From contig CACXGS010000270.1 of assembly GCA_902767195.1 (NCBI GenBank), positions 1 to 12,253 on the forward strand: a stretch of 12,253 nucleotides of DNA, written 5' to 3'. This stretch comes from an uncultured Lachnospiraceae bacterium. GTDB taxonomy: Bacteria; Bacillota_A; Clostridia; Lachnospirales; Lachnospiraceae. The notes beneath the pieces are model-generated. The model made no database searches and was not told the DNA's origin. It saw nothing but the letters and a program-made list of their open reading frames with translations. Each line of letters begins with the position of its first letter. The first letter of the stretch is position 1. The position numbers and the translations under genes are program-made. Of this stretch, positions 3,706 to 11,613 are shown piece after piece.

Positions 3706-3730
3706 CAGTTACTTAAAGAAGGGAGTGGTA

Positions 3731-5176
3731 ATGATGGATGTCCGCAGAAACGGACGGCATGCCGGCCTGATTCTGTTTTTGGCTTTGTTCCTGTGTCTGG
3801 CAGGGAGCCTTCAGGTAAAGGCAATGAAGTTAAGCACATCGAAAATCCGACTTGACAAGGGAAGCAGCAGGAAAATATATCTGGAAGGTGCCAAAGGACC
3901 TGTCATCTGGAAGAGCAGCAATCGTCAGGTTGTGACAGTGAAAGGCGGAAAAATCTATGCCCAAAGTGGCGGAACCACCTATGTCCGGGCGACCTGCTGT
4001 GGCCGCAAGTATTACTGTCAGGTAAAAGTCGTCGGACTTAACCGCAGAAGAATAACAATGGCACCGGGCCAGTCTTATAAATTGAAGATGTATAATGGTC
4101 AGAACATTAACTGGTCGACCGATAATTCTGTGATCGCTGAGGTTTCAAAGGACGGAAAAGTTCTTGCGAAAGCACCGGGCCCTGCGACCATCACCTGCAC
4201 AAGTAATAATAAGAAGTATGTCTGCAAAATCTATGTAGCAGAATTGAACGCTTACAGTCTCTCTATGGAAGAAGGAGAGTCCTTTACCCTTGTCAGAATG
4301 CAGTCTGATGCGAAACCACGGTGGTCTTCCGATGATCCTACTGTGGCCAGGGTGAGTTCCAATGGAACCGTGACAGCAGTTTCCGGCGGACAGGCTGTAA
4401 TAACCTGTCTTTGTGGCTCCGCAATCCTGAGATGTCAGATAAATGTAGCGGGAGATTATAACGTAGTCTCTCAATATGATGTTCCGGTTACCAAAAGCCA
4501 TCGTAAGCTTGTGACTGTGAGAGGGCCTTTCAGAGACCTGCATTACTACGTTTATAACCAGGCCTCCTCTAAAAACAGGATTCAGAGAGCGTCTCTGAAG
4601 TCATATTTGCCTGCCCATGGCTGTGCCGGTACTACAGCATCCACGATTTTGGGAGGAATGCTCGGAAGAGAGATTCGTCCGGCAGTCATGATAACCAGGA
4701 TCGAGAGAAAAATATTCGGAGAGAAGTCCTGGAAAAGAAACTACAAGAAAAACGGCAGGAGAATGCCGGTATGCCTGAACGGAATCTCGAAGATTTACAG
4801 TGCTTACCATATTAACACTACCTATGTCCGGCAATTTACCGACAGTCAGGCCAGAGAGCAGATTACAAGACACTTAAAGAGAGGGAATCCCATTATATTT
4901 GTTGTTTCCAAGAAAAATCGCAAGACCGGAAAGAAAAACGGTAAATGGACCAATGGCTACCATACCATGGCCATGATCGGAATGACCAAAGACGGAAAAG
5001 TTATAGTAGCTGATTCTGTGAACCGTCCGTCTTTTGGTTCCGCTCAGAGATTGAAATTAACGACGCTTAATGCTATACTACCTTATATGTTCCCGGCAAC
5101 TAAGATCAAAGATAACAATTACTGGGGCAGCAGCAGAAGCAGCGGGGGATATCTCCTCGTTTACTCGAATCGCTAG
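3731..5176 (+). CDS. Secreted three-Big2 protein with C-terminal C39-like cysteine-peptidase domain
   Basis: This 481-residue protein starts with a signal peptide (hydrophobic LILFLALFLCLAG at 13-25, likely cut near VKA-31). Three consecutive bacterial Ig-like group 2 domains follow (about 33-100, 101-170, 171-240), each with the W-S-S/T-D/N...V..V pattern and each ending in a cysteine pair. The C-terminal part resembles the Peptidase_C39_2 / papain-like fold: HGCAGTTAS with candidate nucleophile Cys298, GYHTMAMIG with His411, and VADSVNR with Asp428. It is probably exported and could cleave peptides or bind them; substrate and activity are unknown. GTG at 3725 is an alternative start, but AGAAGGGAG is best spaced for the ATG at 3731. 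It shares its C-terminal domain with the protein at 10795-11613. Confidence 0.83.
   Translation: MMDVRRNGRHAGLILFLALFLCLAGSLQVKAMKLSTSKIRLDKGSSRKIYLEGAKGPVIWKSSNRQVVTVKGGKIYAQSGGTTYVRATCCGRKYYCQVKVVGLNRRRITMAPGQSYKLKMYNGQNINWSTDNSVIAEVSKDGKVLAKAPGPATITCTSNNKKYVCKIYVAELNAYSLSMEEGESFTLVRMQSDAKPRWSSDDPTVARVSSNGTVTAVSGGQAVITCLCGSAILRCQINVAGDYNVVSQYDVPVTKSHRKLVTVRGPFRDLHYYVYNQASSKNRIQRASLKSYLPAHGCAGTTASTILGGMLGREIRPAVMITRIERKIFGEKSWKRNYKKNGRRMPVCLNGISKIYSAYHINTTYVRQFTDSQAREQITRHLKRGNPIIFVVSKKNRKTGKKNGKWTNGYHTMAMIGMTKDGKVIVADSVNRPSFGSAQRLKLTTLNAILPYMFPATKIKDNNYWGSSRSSGGYLLVYSNR
5051..5079 (+). promoter_or_regulatory. Probable internal promoter for ilvE
   Basis: TTGAAA (5051-5056) and TATACT (5074-5079) are 17 bases apart with a TGC extended -10. 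The site lies inside the 3' end of the C39-like gene, about 127 bases before ilvE. It would let ilvE be transcribed independently of the upstream promoter. The call rests only on consensus match within coding DNA. Confidence 0.45.
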
Positions 5177-5205: not shown

Positions 5206-6234
5206 ATGGAAAAGAAGGATATCAACTGGAGTGGACTTGGTTTTCAATATCATGTTACAGATGCCCGTTTTGTATCGAATTACAAAGACGGCAAGTGGGA
5301 TGAGGGGACAATTACTTCAGATGCCAATATTACCCTGAATGAATGTGCCGGTGTATTTCAGTATGCACAGACCATTTTTGAGGGACTGAAGGCCTATACC
5401 ACGGAAGACGGGAAGATCGTATGCTTCCGTCCCGACCTCAATGCCTCCCGTATGGCAGACTCTGCCAGAAGACTGGAGATGCCTGTCTATCCGGAAGAGA
5501 AGTTCGTGGAAGCCGTGGTGAAGACGGTAGAGGCTAATGCGGCATGGGTTCCGCCCTTCGGATCCGGAGCAACCCTTTACATTCGCCCCTATATGTTCGG
5601 AACCAATCCTGTCATCGGTGTAAAGCCGGCAGATGAATACCAGTTCCGTATCTTTGTTACTCCCGTGGGACCATACTTTAAAGGCGGCGCTAAGCCCATT
5701 ACCATCCGGGTGTCTGATTTTGACCGTGCAGCGCCCCATGGTACCGGACACATCAAGGCAGGCCTCAATTATGCTATGAGTCTTCATGCTATCGTGGATG
5801 CCCATAAGAAAGGCTTTGACGAGAACATGTACCTTGATCCCGGAACCAGGACCAAGGTGGAGGAAACCGGCGGAGCGAACTTTATTTTCATCACCAAAGA
5901 CGGGAAGCTGGTAACTCCCAAGTCGGACAGCATCCTTCCTTCCATTACACGTCGTTCCATCATGTATGTGGCGGAGCACTATCTTAATATGGAAGTAGAA
6001 CACAGAGAGGTTCTCTTTGATGAGGTTAAGGATTTCGCAGAATGCGGTCTCTGTGGTACTGCTGCGGTTATTTCTCCGGTGGGCAAGATTGTCGATCACG
6101 GAAAAGAGATTTGTTTCCCGAGCGGTATGGAAGATATGGGACCGTATACCAAAAAGCTGTATGAAACCCTGACCGGTATCCAGATGGGACACATTGAAGC
6201 ACCGGAAGGATGGATCAAGGTAATCTGTGAATAG
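5206..6234 (+). CDS. ilvE: Branched-chain amino acid aminotransferase
   Basis: This 342-residue class IV PLP aminotransferase interconverts leucine, isoleucine and valine with their 2-oxo acids using glutamate/2-oxoglutarate, in the cytoplasm. Its length and motifs match the bacterial IlvE form closest to eukaryotic BCATs. Visible motifs are FEGLKAY at 58-64, the PLP lysine Lys184 in GTGHIKAGLNYAMS, the EETGGANFIF cofactor-binding segment with Glu220, and GTAAVISPVG at 284-293. A Cys-x-x-Cys (280-283) precedes the last motif; it is not in the same position as the CxxC of mammalian BCAT. An AAGAAGGG ribosome site lies upstream at slightly long spacing. It follows the C39-like gene by 29 bases and ends before a strong terminator. 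No T-box or leader peptide for branched-chain amino acids is visible. Confidence 0.95.
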   Translation: MEKKDINWSGLGFQYHVTDARFVSNYKDGKWDEGTITSDANITLNECAGVFQYAQTIFEGLKAYTTEDGKIVCFRPDLNASRMADSARRLEMPVYPEEKFVEAVVKTVEANAAWVPPFGSGATLYIRPYMFGTNPVIGVKPADEYQFRIFVTPVGPYFKGGAKPITIRVSDFDRAAPHGTGHIKAGLNYAMSLHAIVDAHKKGFDENMYLDPGTRTKVEETGGANFIFITKDGKLVTPKSDSILPSITRRSIMYVAEHYLNMEVEHREVLFDEVKDFAECGLCGTAAVISPVGKIVDHGKEICFPSGMEDMGPYTKKLYETLTGIQMGHIEAPEGWIKVICE

Positions 6235-6290
6235 AGGCAATCCATATTTTTAAAGAGTATAGATAGCTGAATAACAGGAATTTTTTAAGG

Positions 6291-6350
6291 GAGGATATTC
6301 TTTCCCGGTTTCCCCGAAAAGGAAAGCGGAGAAGAATATCCTCTTTTTTT
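6291..6350 (+). terminator. Rho-independent terminator after ilvE
   Basis: A perfect 12-bp stem (GAGGATATTCTT with AAGAATATCCTC) encloses a 29-base loop and is followed directly by T7. It closes the SGNH-C39-ilvE unit. Bases 6351-6440 after it are AT-rich, with no clear gene and no convincing promoter. Confidence 0.9.
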
Positions 6351-6442
6351 CCTGCCCTTTTCCAAAAAAATTATTCCCCTCTTTCTAAAGATTTTCTTCT
6401 AAATATTTTCTCCCTTCGAATCTATACTATGGTTAATCACGA

Positions 6443-6459
6443 AAGGAGGGGTACGAGTG
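6443..6459 (+). promoter_or_regulatory. Strong ribosome site with GTG start now leading to a dead frame
   Basis: AAGGAGGGG (6443-6451) stands 5 bases before a GTG at 6457. That GTG opens only 28 codons, in a frame different from the rhaM remnant that follows. It is likely the original ribosome site of rhaM left after the deletion of its 5' coding part (inference). Confidence 0.45.
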
Positions 6460-6472
6460 GCAGAAGATTTAA

Positions 6473-6685
6473 GAACATGGCGGAAAGAATTACACGATTT
6501 TCCTGGACCGCGAAACACTGACGCTTTTTGGATATATCGAAATTGAGGATGAAGAGAAGTGGAGCGCAGGAGCTGACACTGCCATTAATCGGAAGTGGTG
6601 GGACTTTATGGCCGACATCATGGAGACCAATCCTGATAACAGTCCGGTCGCCATCGACCTTGACAATGTATTCCATCTTGATTAA
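6473..6685 (+). pseudogene. rhaM: L-rhamnose mutarotase remnant lacking its N-terminal third
   Basis: Seventy codons, ending in a stop just before rhaB, encode the C-terminal two thirds of an L-rhamnose mutarotase, the enzyme that interconverts the alpha and beta anomers of L-rhamnose. Recognisable family segments are NYTIFLDRETLTLFGYIEIE, KWWDFMADIMETNPDNSPV and VFHLD, close to E. coli RhaM (NYAIYLD, RWWKYMTDVMPANPDNSPV, VFYLP). Family proteins are about 104 residues, so roughly 34 are missing, including the region of the catalytic histidine (His22 in E. coli, from memory). The frame has a TAA at 6470-6472 directly upstream and no usable start until an ATG deep in the domain. Only about 20 bases separate the ribosome site from the remnant, so sequence has been deleted rather than merely frameshifted. 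Confidence 0.85.
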
Positions 6686-6699
6686 CAGGGGGTAAAAAT

Positions 6700-8073
6700 A
6701 TGAACTATTATCTTGCGATTGATATCGGTGCTTCCAGCGGACGTCATATGCTGTGCCATCTGGAAGACGGGAAGATGATCCTGGAAGAGATCTATCGTTT
6801 CCCTAACGGAATGAAAAATGTAGAAGGTTCGCTGTGCTGGGATATTCCGGAACTGTTTTCCCATATCAAAGCCGGTATGAAAAAATGTAGTGAGATCGGT
6901 AAAATACCGGTTTCCATGGGAATTGATACCTGGGCCGTTGACTATGTTCTGCTGGACAAGGATGACCAGATCATCGGAAAAACTTACGGCTATCGCGACA
7001 GCCGTACAGAAGGTATGGATGAACAGGTATATCGTCAGATTTCCAAGCAGATTCTTTACGCCAAGACCGGCATTCAGAAACAGCTGTTTAATACCATCTA
7101 TCAGCTGATGGCAGTGAAAGTACAGGAGAGCGGGAATCTGGAGAAGGCAGAGACCATGCTCCTGATTCCGGATTATTTCAACTTCCTTCTGACTGGTGTA
7201 AAGATGACCGAATATACGAATGCTACTACAACGCAGCTGGTAAGTCCGGCCACAAAGGACTGGGATGAATACATCATCGAACGTCTGGGATATCCCCGGC
7301 GAATCTTTACAAAGATTGAAAAGCCCGGAACACTGGTAGGACGTCTCACAAAAGAGATGGAAGAAGTAGACGAAATTCGCGACGATTTGAAGACAGATGC
7401 AGAGTGGATTGAGATTGGAACAGAAGTACCGAAGCTGGCAAAGGAATATTTCCTGGTAACAGGCAGCGGCAAGTATTTCCGGAATGTGATCCTGGATCCG
7501 GAAGATTCCATCTGTGTCATCGAACTCGATGAGACCGGAACCAAATACCGTATTCTCTGGGGTCTTGTGAATGGTGGAAAGCCAACCAGCGAACTCCCTT
7601 CTCATCTGATGAATCATGCAGTAAAAATGATTGCCAGTGGCGGAAAACATCGTGTCATTTACCATGCACATACTACCAATACCATCGCTTTGACTTTCGT
7701 TCTTCCTCTGACTGATGAAGCATTTACAAGAGAACTTTGGGAAATGGCAACGGAATGTCCGGTTGTGTTCCCTTCCGGAATCGGTGTAGTAGGCTGGATG
7801 GTTCCCGGCGGAAGAGATATCGCTGTTGCTACCAGTGAACTGATGAAGAGTTATGATGTAGCGATCTGGGCTCATCATGGCATGTTCTGTTCCGGTGAGG
7901 ACTTCGATTTAACCTTCGGACTGATGCATACCGTTGAGAAGTCTGCGGAGATCCTTGTCAAGACATTATCCATGACTTCCGAGAAGAGACAGACAATTAC
8001 ACCGGATGATTTCAGAGCACTTGCTAAAGATTTCCACGTTGAACTTCCGGAGAAGTTCCTCTATGAGAAATAG
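6700..8073 (+). CDS. rhaB-rhaD: Chimeric rhamnulokinase (N-half) - rhamnulose-1-phosphate aldolase fusion, both parts truncated
   Basis: One 457-codon frame joins two L-rhamnose catabolic enzymes. Residues 1 to about 214 are the N-terminal FGGY-kinase domain of RhaB, with DIGASSGR at 8-15, GIDTWAVDY at 74-82 and GYRDSRT at 97-103. RhaB is normally about 480-490 residues; here the second domain, with the catalytic Asp of the HDTASA motif and the ATP site, is absent. From about residue 215 the sequence is RhaD, with TGSGKYFRN (254-262), Glu298 in TSELPSH, zinc ligands His322 and His324 in YHAHTTN, and His393 in AHHGMF. It lacks about the first 35 residues of the aldolase, including the phosphate-binding NGGN loop. 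The kinase half cannot be active; aldolase activity is doubtful. AGGGGGT is its ribosome site. It looks like an in-frame deletion product, possibly spanning rhaA. Confidence 0.88.
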   Translation: MNYYLAIDIGASSGRHMLCHLEDGKMILEEIYRFPNGMKNVEGSLCWDIPELFSHIKAGMKKCSEIGKIPVSMGIDTWAVDYVLLDKDDQIIGKTYGYRDSRTEGMDEQVYRQISKQILYAKTGIQKQLFNTIYQLMAVKVQESGNLEKAETMLLIPDYFNFLLTGVKMTEYTNATTTQLVSPATKDWDEYIIERLGYPRRIFTKIEKPGTLVGRLTKEMEEVDEIRDDLKTDAEWIEIGTEVPKLAKEYFLVTGSGKYFRNVILDPEDSICVIELDETGTKYRILWGLVNGGKPTSELPSHLMNHAVKMIASGGKHRVIYHAHTTNTIALTFVLPLTDEAFTRELWEMATECPVVFPSGIGVVGWMVPGGRDIAVATSELMKSYDVAIWAHHGMFCSGEDFDLTFGLMHTVEKSAEILVKTLSMTSEKRQTITPDDFRALAKDFHVELPEKFLYEK

Positions 8074-8629
8074 GAGCTCCATTTCACTAAATAAAAAAAC
8101 CAATAATCTTCATCGGTTTATTGCTGCTGCATCCACCTGCCTGGAGCGGACGACTTTTGATAAGCTCACTGTCTGGCAGATTGTCAGTGAGGCAGGCTTG
8201 AGCAGACAGACTTTTTATCGTTGCTGCAACAATAAGTTTGACCTCCTGAACCGGTATATCAGTGAGCTCATTGAATTATCCTTTAACCGTGCGGAAAAGG
8301 AAGGAGCCATGAGCAGGTTTCCGGAATACCTGGTCCGCCAGTTGGAACCGGAACGGGAACTGTTTGCGGCTGCCGGAATATCCGGTGAATACGAAAGCCC
8401 TGTCAGCACGACGAAAAGAAGCCTGTATAACCGGTTTATGAAATATGTTTTCGAGAATGGGTGCAGGATGGACCGTTATCAGGAAGATTTGCTGGATGTA
8501 TATTGTGAAGCCTTTGTTTACATTTTAAGAAGGTGGTGTCTCCATGATATCGAGGGAGACAGTGCGGATATCGCTGCAAGGATTCTGGATATGATGCCGG
8601 TGAAGATAAAAAAGATTCTCCTCTTATAG
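8063..8629 (+). CDS. TetR/AcrR-family transcriptional regulator
   Basis: The 188-residue product has the TetR DNA-binding signature near its N-terminus: LTVWQIVSEAGLSRQTFYRC followed by NNKFDLLNRY (about 35-65). The C-terminal ligand/dimerisation part is helical and unrecognised. The frame is open from 8006, but the ATG at 8063 gives the normal TetR start and follows GGAGAAG. It overlaps the last 11 bases of the RhaB-RhaD frame in another register, which implies translational coupling, so it probably belonged to the rhamnose operon. TetR-type regulation of rhamnose genes is not the usual arrangement, so its target is uncertain. No operator is evident. Confidence 0.85.
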   Translation: MRNRSSISLNKKTNNLHRFIAAASTCLERTTFDKLTVWQIVSEAGLSRQTFYRCCNNKFDLLNRYISELIELSFNRAEKEGAMSRFPEYLVRQLEPERELFAAAGISGEYESPVSTTKRSLYNRFMKYVFENGCRMDRYQEDLLDVYCEAFVYILRRWCLHDIEGDSADIAARILDMMPVKIKKILLL

Positions 8630-8652: not shown

Positions 8653-8691
8653 AAAAGCGGAAAGAGAAGTGCTTCTTCTCTTTCCGCTTTT
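8653..8691 (+). terminator. Long-stem terminator after the TetR gene
   Basis: A perfect 17-bp stem, starting AAAAGCGGAAAGAGAAG and closing with its exact complement, encloses a 5-base loop. The T-run at its 3' end is part of the stem. A short (TA)n run at 8630-8642 precedes it. It ends the rhamnose/TetR unit. Confidence 0.85.
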
Positions 8692-8763: not shown

Positions 8764-8833
8764 GGACATATTTATTTTTAACCAGGATAATGCTGCTCGT
8801 TACTCAGGAGAAGGATAATATAGGAGGGTGATT

Positions 8834-10747
8834 ATGGCAGAGAATAATGACTTGAATTTTGTAACAGAATATGATCAGTATCTGTTCGGAACAGGTACAC
8901 ATTACGATATCTATAATAAGCTGGGAGCTCATGTCCTGACCCATGAAGGGAAAAAAGGGGTTTATTTTGCTGTGTGGGCACCCAAAGCGGAAGCAGTTCA
9001 TATTGTAGGTGATTTTAATGGCTGGAATGAAGAGGCAACACCTATGAAGAGACTGGAGCCTCTTGGCATCTATGAACTGTTTATTCCCGGATTCAAGGAA
9101 GGCCAGATATACAAGTACTGTATTACCACCCAGAAGGGAGAGAAGATCCAGAAAGTCGATCCTTTTGCTTTCCAGGCAGAGAAGCGGCCCAACAATGCTT
9201 CCGTGGTAGCTGATCTTTCCAACCTGCGTTGGAGCGATAAGAAGTGGATGGATAAGAGGGTGAAGTTCTCCCCCCGTAAGAGTGCCATGACGGTATATGA
9301 AGTTCATCCCGGTTCCTGGATGCGCCATCCGGTATCGGAGGAGGACAAGGACGGTTATTATAATTACAGGGAACTGGCAGTAAAGCTGACAGAGTATGTA
9401 AAGAAGATGGGCTATACCCATGTGGAATTGATGGGTATCGCAGAACATCCTTTTGACGGATCATGGGGATATCAGGTGACCAATTATTTTGCACCCACAT
9501 CCCGCCACGGAACCCCTAAAGATTTCCAGTTCTTTGTGAATTATCTGCATAAGAACAATATTGGTATCATCCTTGACTGGGTGCCCGCTCATTTCCCCAG
9601 AGACCAGTTCGGCCTGGCGGAGTTTGACGGAACCTGCCTTTACGAGTATGCCGATCCCCGTAAGGGAGAGCATCCCGACTGGGGAACCAAGGTCTTCGAT
9701 TTCAGCAAGACCGAGGTGAAGAACTTCCTGATATCCAATGCCCTTTACTGGGTGGAGAAGTTCCACATCGATGGTCTTCGGGTCGATGCTGTAGCCTCCA
9801 TGCTTTATCTGGACTATGGAAGAGAGGACGGACAATGGGTTGCCAACCAGTATGGCGGCAATGAGAACCTGGAAGCTATCGAGTTCTTTAAGCATCTGAA
9901 TACAGTGGTCAAAGGACGGAATCCAGGTGTGGTCATGATTGCGGAGGAGTCCACGGCATGGCCTAAGATTACAGATCAGGCCCAGTACGGAGGCCTGGAC
10001 TTCAGCCTCAAGTGGAATATGGGCTGGATGCATGATTTCCTGGAATATGTGAAGCTGGATCCCATCTACCGGAAGGGCTGCCACAATAAGATGACTTTTG
10101 CTATGAGCTATGCATATTCTGAGAACTATATGCTGGTCCTCTCCCACGATGAAGTGGTCCACCTGAAATGTTCCATGCTGGAGAAGATGCCGGGTCTTTA
10201 TGACGACAAGTTCCGCAACCTCATGGTTGCCTATGCCTTTATGTTCGGTCATCCGGGCAAGAAGCTCCTTTTTATGGGCCAGGAGTTCGGCCAGCACAGA
10301 GAGTGGAGCGAGGCCAGGGAGCTTGACTGGTTCCTCCTTGCCAAGGACCGCAACCGGTGGATGCAGGATTATGTAAGGGATCTCCTTCATCTTTACAAGA
10401 GCAACAAGTGCCTTTATGAGTATGATTGCTGGCCGGAGGGCTTTGAGTGGATTAATGCCGATGATGCGGATCGCAGTATTTTCTCCTTCGTCCGTCATTC
10501 AGAGAACGGCAGGAACAACATGCTTTTCGTCTGCAACTTCACTCCGGTAGCCCGTCCGGATTACCGTGTTGGGACTACATGCTTGAGAAAACATACTCTG
10601 GTCCTGAACAGTGATGATCCGAAATATGGCGGAACCGGCCAGGAGAGACCGCTCACCTATAAGCCGGTTAAGTCTGAGTGTGATGGGAAGCCCTTCTCGA
10701 TTGCTTATGATCTGCCGGCCTACGGAGTAGCCGTATTTAAGTATTAG
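8834..10747 (+). CDS. glgB: 1,4-alpha-glucan (glycogen) branching enzyme
   Basis: This 637-residue GH13 enzyme introduces alpha-1,6 branches into glycogen-type glucan in the cytoplasm. The N-terminal part is a CBM48-type domain (YFAVWAPKAEAVHIVGDFN, about 44-62). The four GH13 motifs follow: DWVPAHF (248-254), DGLRVDAV with nucleophile Asp318, AEES with acid Glu371, and SHDEVVH with His438-Asp439. The GSWGYQ segment typical of branching enzymes is at 209-214. Family members of this type are 630-650 residues, so it is complete. After HDEVVH it reads LKCSM where many branching enzymes have a glycine first. GTG at 8828 is possible, but AGGAGGG places the ATG at 8834. No other glycogen genes are in the window. 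A C39-like gene follows after 47 bases without a terminator. Confidence 0.96.
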   Translation: MAENNDLNFVTEYDQYLFGTGTHYDIYNKLGAHVLTHEGKKGVYFAVWAPKAEAVHIVGDFNGWNEEATPMKRLEPLGIYELFIPGFKEGQIYKYCITTQKGEKIQKVDPFAFQAEKRPNNASVVADLSNLRWSDKKWMDKRVKFSPRKSAMTVYEVHPGSWMRHPVSEEDKDGYYNYRELAVKLTEYVKKMGYTHVELMGIAEHPFDGSWGYQVTNYFAPTSRHGTPKDFQFFVNYLHKNNIGIILDWVPAHFPRDQFGLAEFDGTCLYEYADPRKGEHPDWGTKVFDFSKTEVKNFLISNALYWVEKFHIDGLRVDAVASMLYLDYGREDGQWVANQYGGNENLEAIEFFKHLNTVVKGRNPGVVMIAEESTAWPKITDQAQYGGLDFSLKWNMGWMHDFLEYVKLDPIYRKGCHNKMTFAMSYAYSENYMLVLSHDEVVHLKCSMLEKMPGLYDDKFRNLMVAYAFMFGHPGKKLLFMGQEFGQHREWSEARELDWFLLAKDRNRWMQDYVRDLLHLYKSNKCLYEYDCWPEGFEWINADDADRSIFSFVRHSENGRNNMLFVCNFTPVARPDYRVGTTCLRKHTLVLNSDDPKYGGTGQERPLTYKPVKSECDGKPFSIAYDLPAYGVAVFKY

Positions 10748-10794: not shown

Positions 10795-11613
10795 ATGAAT
10801 AATATAAAGTCGGTTACTCTTCAGAGGAACCGAGACGATAAGGGGGATTATTATCTGACTTTCAGAGGTAATCCCTCTGTTCTTAATGATGAAGAAGTAT
10901 TTGTGAAAATGGTTAATGCTCCGGAAGCCGGAGGATCTTCAGAGGGAAAGAAGGGGAGAGCGGAACGCATCTTCCCGGTTTTCCGGCAAAATGCCATGAA
11001 TTACGGAGAGTACAGTGAATATATCAGAGATCATGGCTGCGCCTGCTGCAGCCTGACCAGCATGCTGGCGGCTTACTGCCCTCAATATCGTAACCTTCGG
11101 CCGGAGGAGACCATCACCCGGGTGGAGCGGAAGCATTTTCCGGAGAACATCTGGAAGAAAAACTATGGTAAACCGGAGAAGAAGCAGATGCCAGTGACTC
11201 TTTACGGTATTTCCCGCATATTTGAAGAGGAAGGAATTCTCAACCGCTATGTGGGACCTTTCCGGGATCGTGAGGCAGAGAGAGAGATCCGCGATCATCT
11301 GAGGAGAGGGATGCCCGTATTGGTGGAGGCCAGCCGGCTCCGCCGCTGGAAAGGACTTCCGGTGTCCCTGAATGACCGGAAATATGCGGGCTCTTATCAC
11401 ACCATGATCCTTCTGGGACTTGATAAGAAAGGCTATGTTATCTTCACCGATTCTGCCACCAGAGACTGGGCCGGTGACCGGCAGAGACTGAAGCGGGACA
11501 GCCTGCCCAACATGATTTCCTATATGTTCCCGCAGATAAACAGAAAAGCCACCAACCTGTACTACGATCATCGGTGGAATACCGGTGGATATTTATTGAC
11601 AAATGTATTTTGA
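10795..11613 (+). CDS. C39-like cysteine-peptidase domain protein without signal peptide
   Basis: This 272-residue protein is a paralogue of the C-terminal domain of the secreted protein at 3731-5176. Shared landmarks in the same order are HGC with candidate nucleophile Cys82, ITRVERKHF / WKKNY, MPVTLYGIS (132-140), F-D-x-x-A...HLRRGMPV, SYHTM with His202, TDSATR with Asp219, QRLK, YMFP and GGYLL. It has no signal peptide and no Big2 domains; its first 60 residues are hydrophilic and unrecognised, so it should stay in the cytoplasm unless exported unconventionally. Cys84, Cys85 and Cys95 lie near the candidate nucleophile. AGGAG at 7 bases supports the start. It follows glgB by 47 bases and may be co-transcribed. 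The fold assignment is fairly sure; activity and substrate are unknown. Confidence 0.8.
   Translation: MNNIKSVTLQRNRDDKGDYYLTFRGNPSVLNDEEVFVKMVNAPEAGGSSEGKKGRAERIFPVFRQNAMNYGEYSEYIRDHGCACCSLTSMLAAYCPQYRNLRPEETITRVERKHFPENIWKKNYGKPEKKQMPVTLYGISRIFEEEGILNRYVGPFRDREAEREIRDHLRRGMPVLVEASRLRRWKGLPVSLNDRKYAGSYHTMILLGLDKKGYVIFTDSATRDWAGDRQRLKRDSLPNMISYMFPQINRKATNLYYDHRWNTGGYLLTNVF

Follow-up and report, generated by a model that had tools for sequence, protein, structure and literature searches.

An in-frame RhaB–RhaD chimera, probably an accidental product of deletion, in a truncated L-rhamnose island at the ilvE–glgB site

Two-domain proteins are known in rhamnose catabolism. RhaEW is a bifunctional aldolase/dehydrogenase described as assayed and active (PMC3870299). 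No account of chimeras or fusions between rhamnulokinase (RhaB) and rhamnulose-1-phosphate aldolase (RhaD) was found in the parts of the searched literature that were accessible, including those of PMC7478625 and PMC3870299. Here, a DNA stretch of 12,253 nucleotides (the window) is described, in which one open frame begins as RhaB and ends as RhaD. The window likely holds the stump of an L-rhamnose island lying between ilvE and glgB, with two internal deletions, and the chimera would be accidental. The features of the locus are collected in Table 1.

Table 1. Features of the rhamnose stump and of its flanks, in window coordinates.
Feature	Coordinates	Strand	Evidence or remark
ilvE, branched-chain aminotransferase, upstream flank	5206..6234	+	NCBIfam NF009897
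Hairpin and T-run, probable ilvE terminator	6287..6350	+	RNA fold of 6285-6352, -33.8 kcal/mol
Retained start of the ABC transporter ATPase gene of the rha island: leader, ribosome-binding site and 5 codons (GTG 6457, VAEDL)	6365..6471	+	
Junction 1, ATPase codon 5 to rhaM codon ~34	6469..6478	+	End point of a putative ~10 kb deletion
rhaM stump, the final 68 codons of an L-rhamnose mutarotase gene without its start	6479..6682	+	Stop TAA 6683-6685
RhaB-derived part, residues 1-222	6700..7365	+	P0121 match, FGGY_N
Junction 2, GAAGAA (EE, residues 221-222)	7360..7365	+	Position-by-position comparison with P0121 and P0008
RhaD-derived part (RhaD 39-275), stop TAG	7360..8073	+	P0008 match, TIGR02624, 1gt7 alignment
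tetR-type regulator, open frame	8063..8629	+	TetR_N; start overlaps the end of the aldolase frame
Terminator-like hairpin after tetR	8653..8691	+	17-pair stem
glgB, branching enzyme, downstream flank	8828..10747	+	NF003811

The chimera is encoded by a single ATG-started open frame of 457 codons (6700..8073, + strand), ahead of which AGGGGG forms the ribosome-binding site. In Pfam, residues 3–221 match FGGY_N (E 2.9e-30) and residues 247–419 match Aldolase_II (E 4.6e-18), and FGGY_C is absent. In NCBIfam, the chimera covers profile positions 1–221 of 454 of the rhamnulokinase family TIGR02627 (260.7 bits; cut-off, 527.95) and positions 38–270 of 270 of the aldolase family TIGR02624 (284.7 bits; cut-off, 400.95), while it passes the laxer cut-off of NF002963 (283.3 bits vs 170). 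The protein thus falls outside the RhaB family, taken as FGGY_N plus FGGY_C with a full-length TIGR02627 match above the cut-off, and outside the RhaD family, taken as a full-length TIGR02624 match above the cut-off. Nor does it hold both enzymes whole in one chain, as judged by alignment with the complete fusions P0002, P0003, and P0006. BLASTP aligned residues 1–222 with residues 1–222 of RhaB P0121 (85%) and residues 221–457 with residues 39–275 of RhaD P0008 (89%); these are the closest intact proteins among the matches listed, from which the exact parents are absent. The first-pass annotation had described one RhaB-to-RhaD frame, which Pfam, NCBIfam, and BLASTP confirm as no chance frame, and had attributed it to an in-frame deletion, which the domains, the BLASTP halves, and the gene order in relatives support. 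Its claim that the second half of the kinase is lost agrees with the missing FGGY_C and with the end of the TIGR02627 match. The start of the aldolase is indeed lost too, but by 38 residues rather than about 35.

On an alignment with E. coli RhaD (1gt7), in which positions were counted by hand, Glu298, His322, His324, and His393 of the chimera correspond to residues 117, 141, 143, and 212, which we take to be the catalytic acid and the zinc histidines. The acid and the three histidines of RhaD are therefore intact, as had been annotated. The NGGN motif (residues 29–32 in 1gt7 numbering), presumably the phosphate loop, is missing, again as annotated, since the RhaD part starts at residue 39. 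Drawing on the family biochemistry of RhaB and RhaD, the product probably has neither kinase activity, because the ATP-binding domain is missing, nor aldolase activity, because the N-terminal NGGN phosphate-binding loop is missing. Its expression may be possible, as the leader, the ribosome-binding site, and the terminator are all kept.

The joint between the two halves falls on two glutamates that are compatible with both parents and by which the BLASTP halves overlap. Upstream of and including these glutamates, GRLTKEMEE of the window is identical in RhaB P0121. The junction had been placed near residue 214, about seven residues too early, on the grounds that the RL pair at residues 215–216 and its spacing to TGSGK fitted RhaD. 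Yet GRLTKEM (residues 214–220) belongs to the stretch identical to P0121, and the stretch between R215 and TGSGK exceeds its counterpart in the RhaD of locus L003 by two residues (counted by eye). The suggestion that a GRL/xRL-like similarity between the parents guided the event is likewise incorrect.

In the three loci closest to the window (L001–L003, from the best 80 of at least 581 places), rhaM, rhaB, rhaD, and a tetR-like gene are separate genes in the same order, the last of them being a weak homologue (32–38% identity) of the window's tetR lying 3' of rhaD. In L001, L002, and L003, rhaB codon 222 and rhaD codon 39 are separated by 897, 923, and 890 bases, respectively, so a deletion of ~0.9 kb would account for the chimera. 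A 10-base word near the joint is common to rhaB codons 217–220 and rhaD codons 38–41 in L003, while the longest common rhaB/rhaD words in L001 (6 bases) and L002 (5 bases) are located elsewhere than the joint; these words were sought in sequence flanking the joint in relatives, which are not the true parents. The joint would have a repeat-guided origin, with repeat length and deletion size as estimates taken from the relatives.

In the genomes G002 and G003, the island has the order ABC-perm-perm-SBP-HK-RR-isomerase-rhaM-rhaB-rhaD-tetR, where gene families were checked on the G003 copies only and the two permease-like genes were called by eye. The histidine kinase and the AraC-type response regulator sit on the opposite strand, and the isomerase-like protein is a weak match to arabinose isomerase. 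In G022 (L121, 4272–8452), the ATPase gene and two permease genes are followed directly by a rhaD with its own start, inside which the contig ends. The order of the rha island thus varies between relatives. Among 24 genus genomes, RhaD-like matches (E <1e-50) were found in five (G001–G003, G009, and G022), with those of G009 and G022 cut by the contig, and RhaB in three. The separate rhaB and rhaD of relatives, which had been named beforehand as a possible sign of an artefact, stand at loci other than the ilvE–glgB site and show the ancestral state rather than an artefact. Two candidates were rejected: a 766 aa open frame of G001 was not a fusion, as rhaB and rhaD share a frame but have stops between them, and a short RhaD frame of G122 was not a chimera but a frame cut by a contig end. 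Separately, in G347 (L127, 5053–6208), an AraC-type-like regulator (by eye) continues into RhaD 103–275 in a different frame near a contig end, a further rha deletion joint.

A second deletion, absent from the first-pass annotation, was found just upstream of the chimera (window 6365–6685). Positions 6365–6463 are 77% identical to contig C74 of G003 where its ATPase gene begins, and positions 6364–6468 are 75% identical to contig C35 of G022 at the ATPase gene start; with G002, the match is limited to 26 bases around the ATPase start. A consensus promoter was not found in this leader (the consensus scan gave 6 sites in the region, with 4.9 expected). The ATPase frame survives as a 29-residue peptide, and from ~6473 on, the window matches rhaM from codon ~34 onward. 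The two sides of this first junction are ~10 kb apart in relatives (G002 and G003; L115, reverse strand, and L116). The rhaM stump covers positions 35–102 of 102 of TIGR02625 (E 9.1e-29) and, with a stop directly upstream in its frame, would not be translatable as rhaM. Compared with G002 and G003, this locus has no transporter, no two-component system, and no isomerase-like gene, and its rhaM has lost the front part. Adjoining operon genes are thus cut or lost in comparison with kin, as in a deletion remnant. Because this larger deletion adjoins the rhaB–rhaD joint, the locus appears to show the whole rhamnose island being lost.

Wrong joining of rhaB and rhaD pieces, and of ATPase gene and rhaM pieces, during assembly would offer another origin for the two joints. 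Each joint is carried by one contig, the same 12,253-base one, and the joints lie no more than 0.9 kb from each other, which fits an artefact. However, common words at the joint of at most 10 (L003), 6 (L001), and 5 (L002) bases would be short for a k-mer join. Besides, an artefact built from an intact strain predicts an intact RhaB or RhaD at least 90% identical to either half, and none was present among the 120 matches listed in each search. The protein cluster of the window protein comprises 8 member sequences, i.e., it is not a single sighting. Assembly error is therefore considered unlikely.

The surroundings of the stump indicate how it relates to its kin. The distance between ilvE and glgB, taken from match rows, is at most 0.7 kb in 17 of the 24 genus genomes; six gave no distance (absent, weak or partial match, or separate contigs). 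In G001–G003, glgB directly follows ilvE with no rha genes between. One genome of the 24, G011, has the two genes 3.7 kb apart, and the fact that it carries such a stretch there suggests that the site tolerates insertions. By eye, radical-SAM-like genes occupy this stretch (L123). Since kin have ilvE and glgB adjacent, the rha stump of the window would be an insertion relative to them, bounded by a hairpin on each side; the upstream one, which forms the boundary of the rha remnant, is not among the consensus-scan results. DNA identities of 74–80% for ilvE and 71–81% for glgB point to membership of the window in the genus of these genomes, and the source bacterium is probably from an animal gut. 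Elsewhere in the window, positions 1007–2866 encode the large subunit of a diol dehydratase reactivase, and no dehydratase gene was recognised alongside it there; rhamnose fermentation yields propanediol as an end product. Positions 3725–5176 and 10795–11613 encode proteins with a related C-terminal domain (IERKxFxxxxWKxNY...MPVxLxGIS, by eye), of which the former has Big_2 and C39-like peptidase matches and the latter has no Pfam match.

Under the reading preferred here, a deletion of ~10 kb would have joined the start of the ATPase gene to mid-rhaM, and one of ~0.9 kb would have joined rhaB codon 222 to rhaD codon 39 at a short GAAGAA-type match. Both joints would have formed in the cell at short repeats, and recently. 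The frame at the second joint would have been kept by a one-in-three chance; the open frame, regarded as unexpected in the first-pass annotation, is hence no surprise. The ribosome-binding site and the leader would still permit expression of a product that is probably inactive as kinase and aldolase and would decay. The differing island order in G022, the 8 members of the protein cluster, and the many unique changes of the window described below count against this reading. The gene content, both joints, the order in relatives, and the lack of decay are direct observations, and the chimera is most likely a deletion leftover and not a new enzyme.

Conservation bears on the age of the two events. 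With conserved columns defined as the same in at least 95% of other sequences, none of 59 was changed in the RhaB half (65 others compared) and 2 of 156 were changed in the RhaD half, where 18 of 80 others were changed at as many or more. In the rhaM stump, none of 44 conserved columns was changed (90% threshold, 15 homologues). As this headless stump is undecayed, conserved sequence at the locus needs no present selection. Its conservation also indicates that the upstream deletion is young, although the stump serves as a clock for that deletion only and not for the rhaB–rhaD joint. The latter would be recent as well, because its halves are undecayed and no diverged relative with the same junction was found. 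Should the rhaB–rhaD joint have formed earlier, selection may explain its undecayed state. Of the two options raised in the first-pass annotation, a very recent origin thus agrees with the undecayed halves and stump, within this limit, whereas retention for some use is disfavoured by the adjoining larger deletion and by the search for same-junction relatives described below.

Comparisons of coding changes with L001–L003 add little on time. The dN/dS values were undefined, 0.075, and 0.085 for the RhaB half and 0.058, 0.045, and 0.045 for the RhaD half (dS >1.6 or undefined), undefined in all three comparisons for the rhaM stump (67 of 68 codons compared), and 0.020–0.074 between relatives where defined. 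Because dS exceeds 1.6 or is undefined, dN/dS says nothing on the time since the joint. Unique amino-acid changes numbered 16 in the RhaB half of the window vs 12, 10, and 2 in L001–L003, and 10 in the RhaD half vs 6, 2, and 8. This excess may simply reflect the greatest distance of the window among the four.

Searches with the whole window protein (best 120 of 7994 scored proteins) returned no other protein with the same junction: the window protein scored 1054 bits and the next, a complete fusion, 523 bits. With residues 1–226 (best 120 of 7998), only intact or truncated RhaB appeared besides the window protein. At the DNA level, no match listed spanned both halves, either among the best 80 of at least 581 places or in 397 family genomes, of which 179 matched at 1e-45. 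The same fusion in many diverse genomes, which had been allowed for as a sign of a conserved family, is thus not seen, in that the 120 listed relatives share no junction with the window. Among the matches listed, truncated in-frame RhaB–RhaD chimeras amount to at least 13 records including the window's, with five different joints. Given as RhaB/RhaD positions, which are approximate BLASTP match ends, these are 222/39 (P0001, the window form), ~75/64 (P0004 and P0005), ~285/132 (P0045), ~283/144 (P0242, P0243, and P0245–P0250; 8 records, 97.8–99.8% identical to one another), and ~368/156 (P0244). The tally covers rhaB–rhaD joints alone. As out-of-frame joints do not appear in a protein database, selection for the frame is not required to explain the recurrence. 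The 283/144 joint may be an allele that has become established in a single species; no genome with a chimera of this type was found among the 4 and the 396 genomes in which it was sought. Besides these, P0002, P0003, and P0006 (758–764 aa; P0006 is named from Bacilli) hold rhaB and rhaD both whole in one frame and are plausibly bifunctional enzymes.

These data also bear on whether selection maintains the chimera as a new protein, e.g., one that binds a sugar or sugar phosphate or that acts together with the adjacent TetR-type regulator. Such a role would be in keeping with the open frame, the retained ribosome-binding site and leader, the aligned acid and histidines, the undecayed halves, the dN/dS of 0.045–0.085 in the five of six comparisons in which it was defined, and the recurrence of similar chimeras, one of them in 8 nearly identical records. 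On the other hand, the headless rhaM stump, which dates the upstream deletion only, is equally conserved, dS is above 1.6 or undefined, the junction is absent from the 120 relatives listed, and the five joints differ and keep different parts, leaving no common product. We regard selection for a new protein as very unlikely. A related idea is that gut Clostridia repeatedly create and keep such chimeras since a dead sugar-recognising protein, or a frame-preserving double loss ahead of the regulator, is useful; this seems highly improbable, but if true, the kept chimeras could, for example, sense rhamnulose or buffer it while leaving it unmetabolised.

Loss itself might instead have been favoured. 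Sugar phosphates are toxic in aldolase mutants; a cut rhaB would halt rhamnulose phosphorylation and, once other parts of the island are broken, protect the cell from such a compound. This idea would fit the five different in-frame rhaB–rhaD joints, each of which removes parts of kinase and aldolase. However, neutral loss is explanation enough, given that the transporter and the isomerase have also disappeared, and a literature search on the toxicity of this particular sugar phosphate gave no paper. Favoured loss is accordingly rated as doubtful, and accidental loss is preferred. The window then offers a snapshot of the loss of a sugar island, with two joints and an undecayed headless stump that roughly dates one of the joints. 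Gene callers report an accidental in-frame chimera of this kind as one protein, which calls for caution before new bifunctional enzymes are announced, and the recurrence of rhaB–rhaD joints could help to examine whether selection favours loss of the rhamnose pathway.

Compared with known systems, the chimera resembles RhaB (TIGR02627; E. coli 2cgj) in the first half, i.e., its residues 1–222, but is without the whole second half, FGGY_C. It resembles RhaD (TIGR02624; E. coli 1gt7) in having residues 39–275, in which the acid and the three histidines align, but is without the first 38 residues including NGGN. With the complete fusions P0002, P0003, and P0006, it shares the same two genes, their order, and a single frame, whereas both enzymes look whole in those proteins and the window form is the result of a putative deletion. 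The chimeras P0004/P0005, P0045, the P0242 group, and P0244 likewise consist of an in-frame RhaB front and RhaD back, yet their joints lie elsewhere than the 222/39 joint of the window. Finally, RhaEW is similar in being a two-domain protein of rhamnose catabolism, but it is composed of other domains (PMC3870299).
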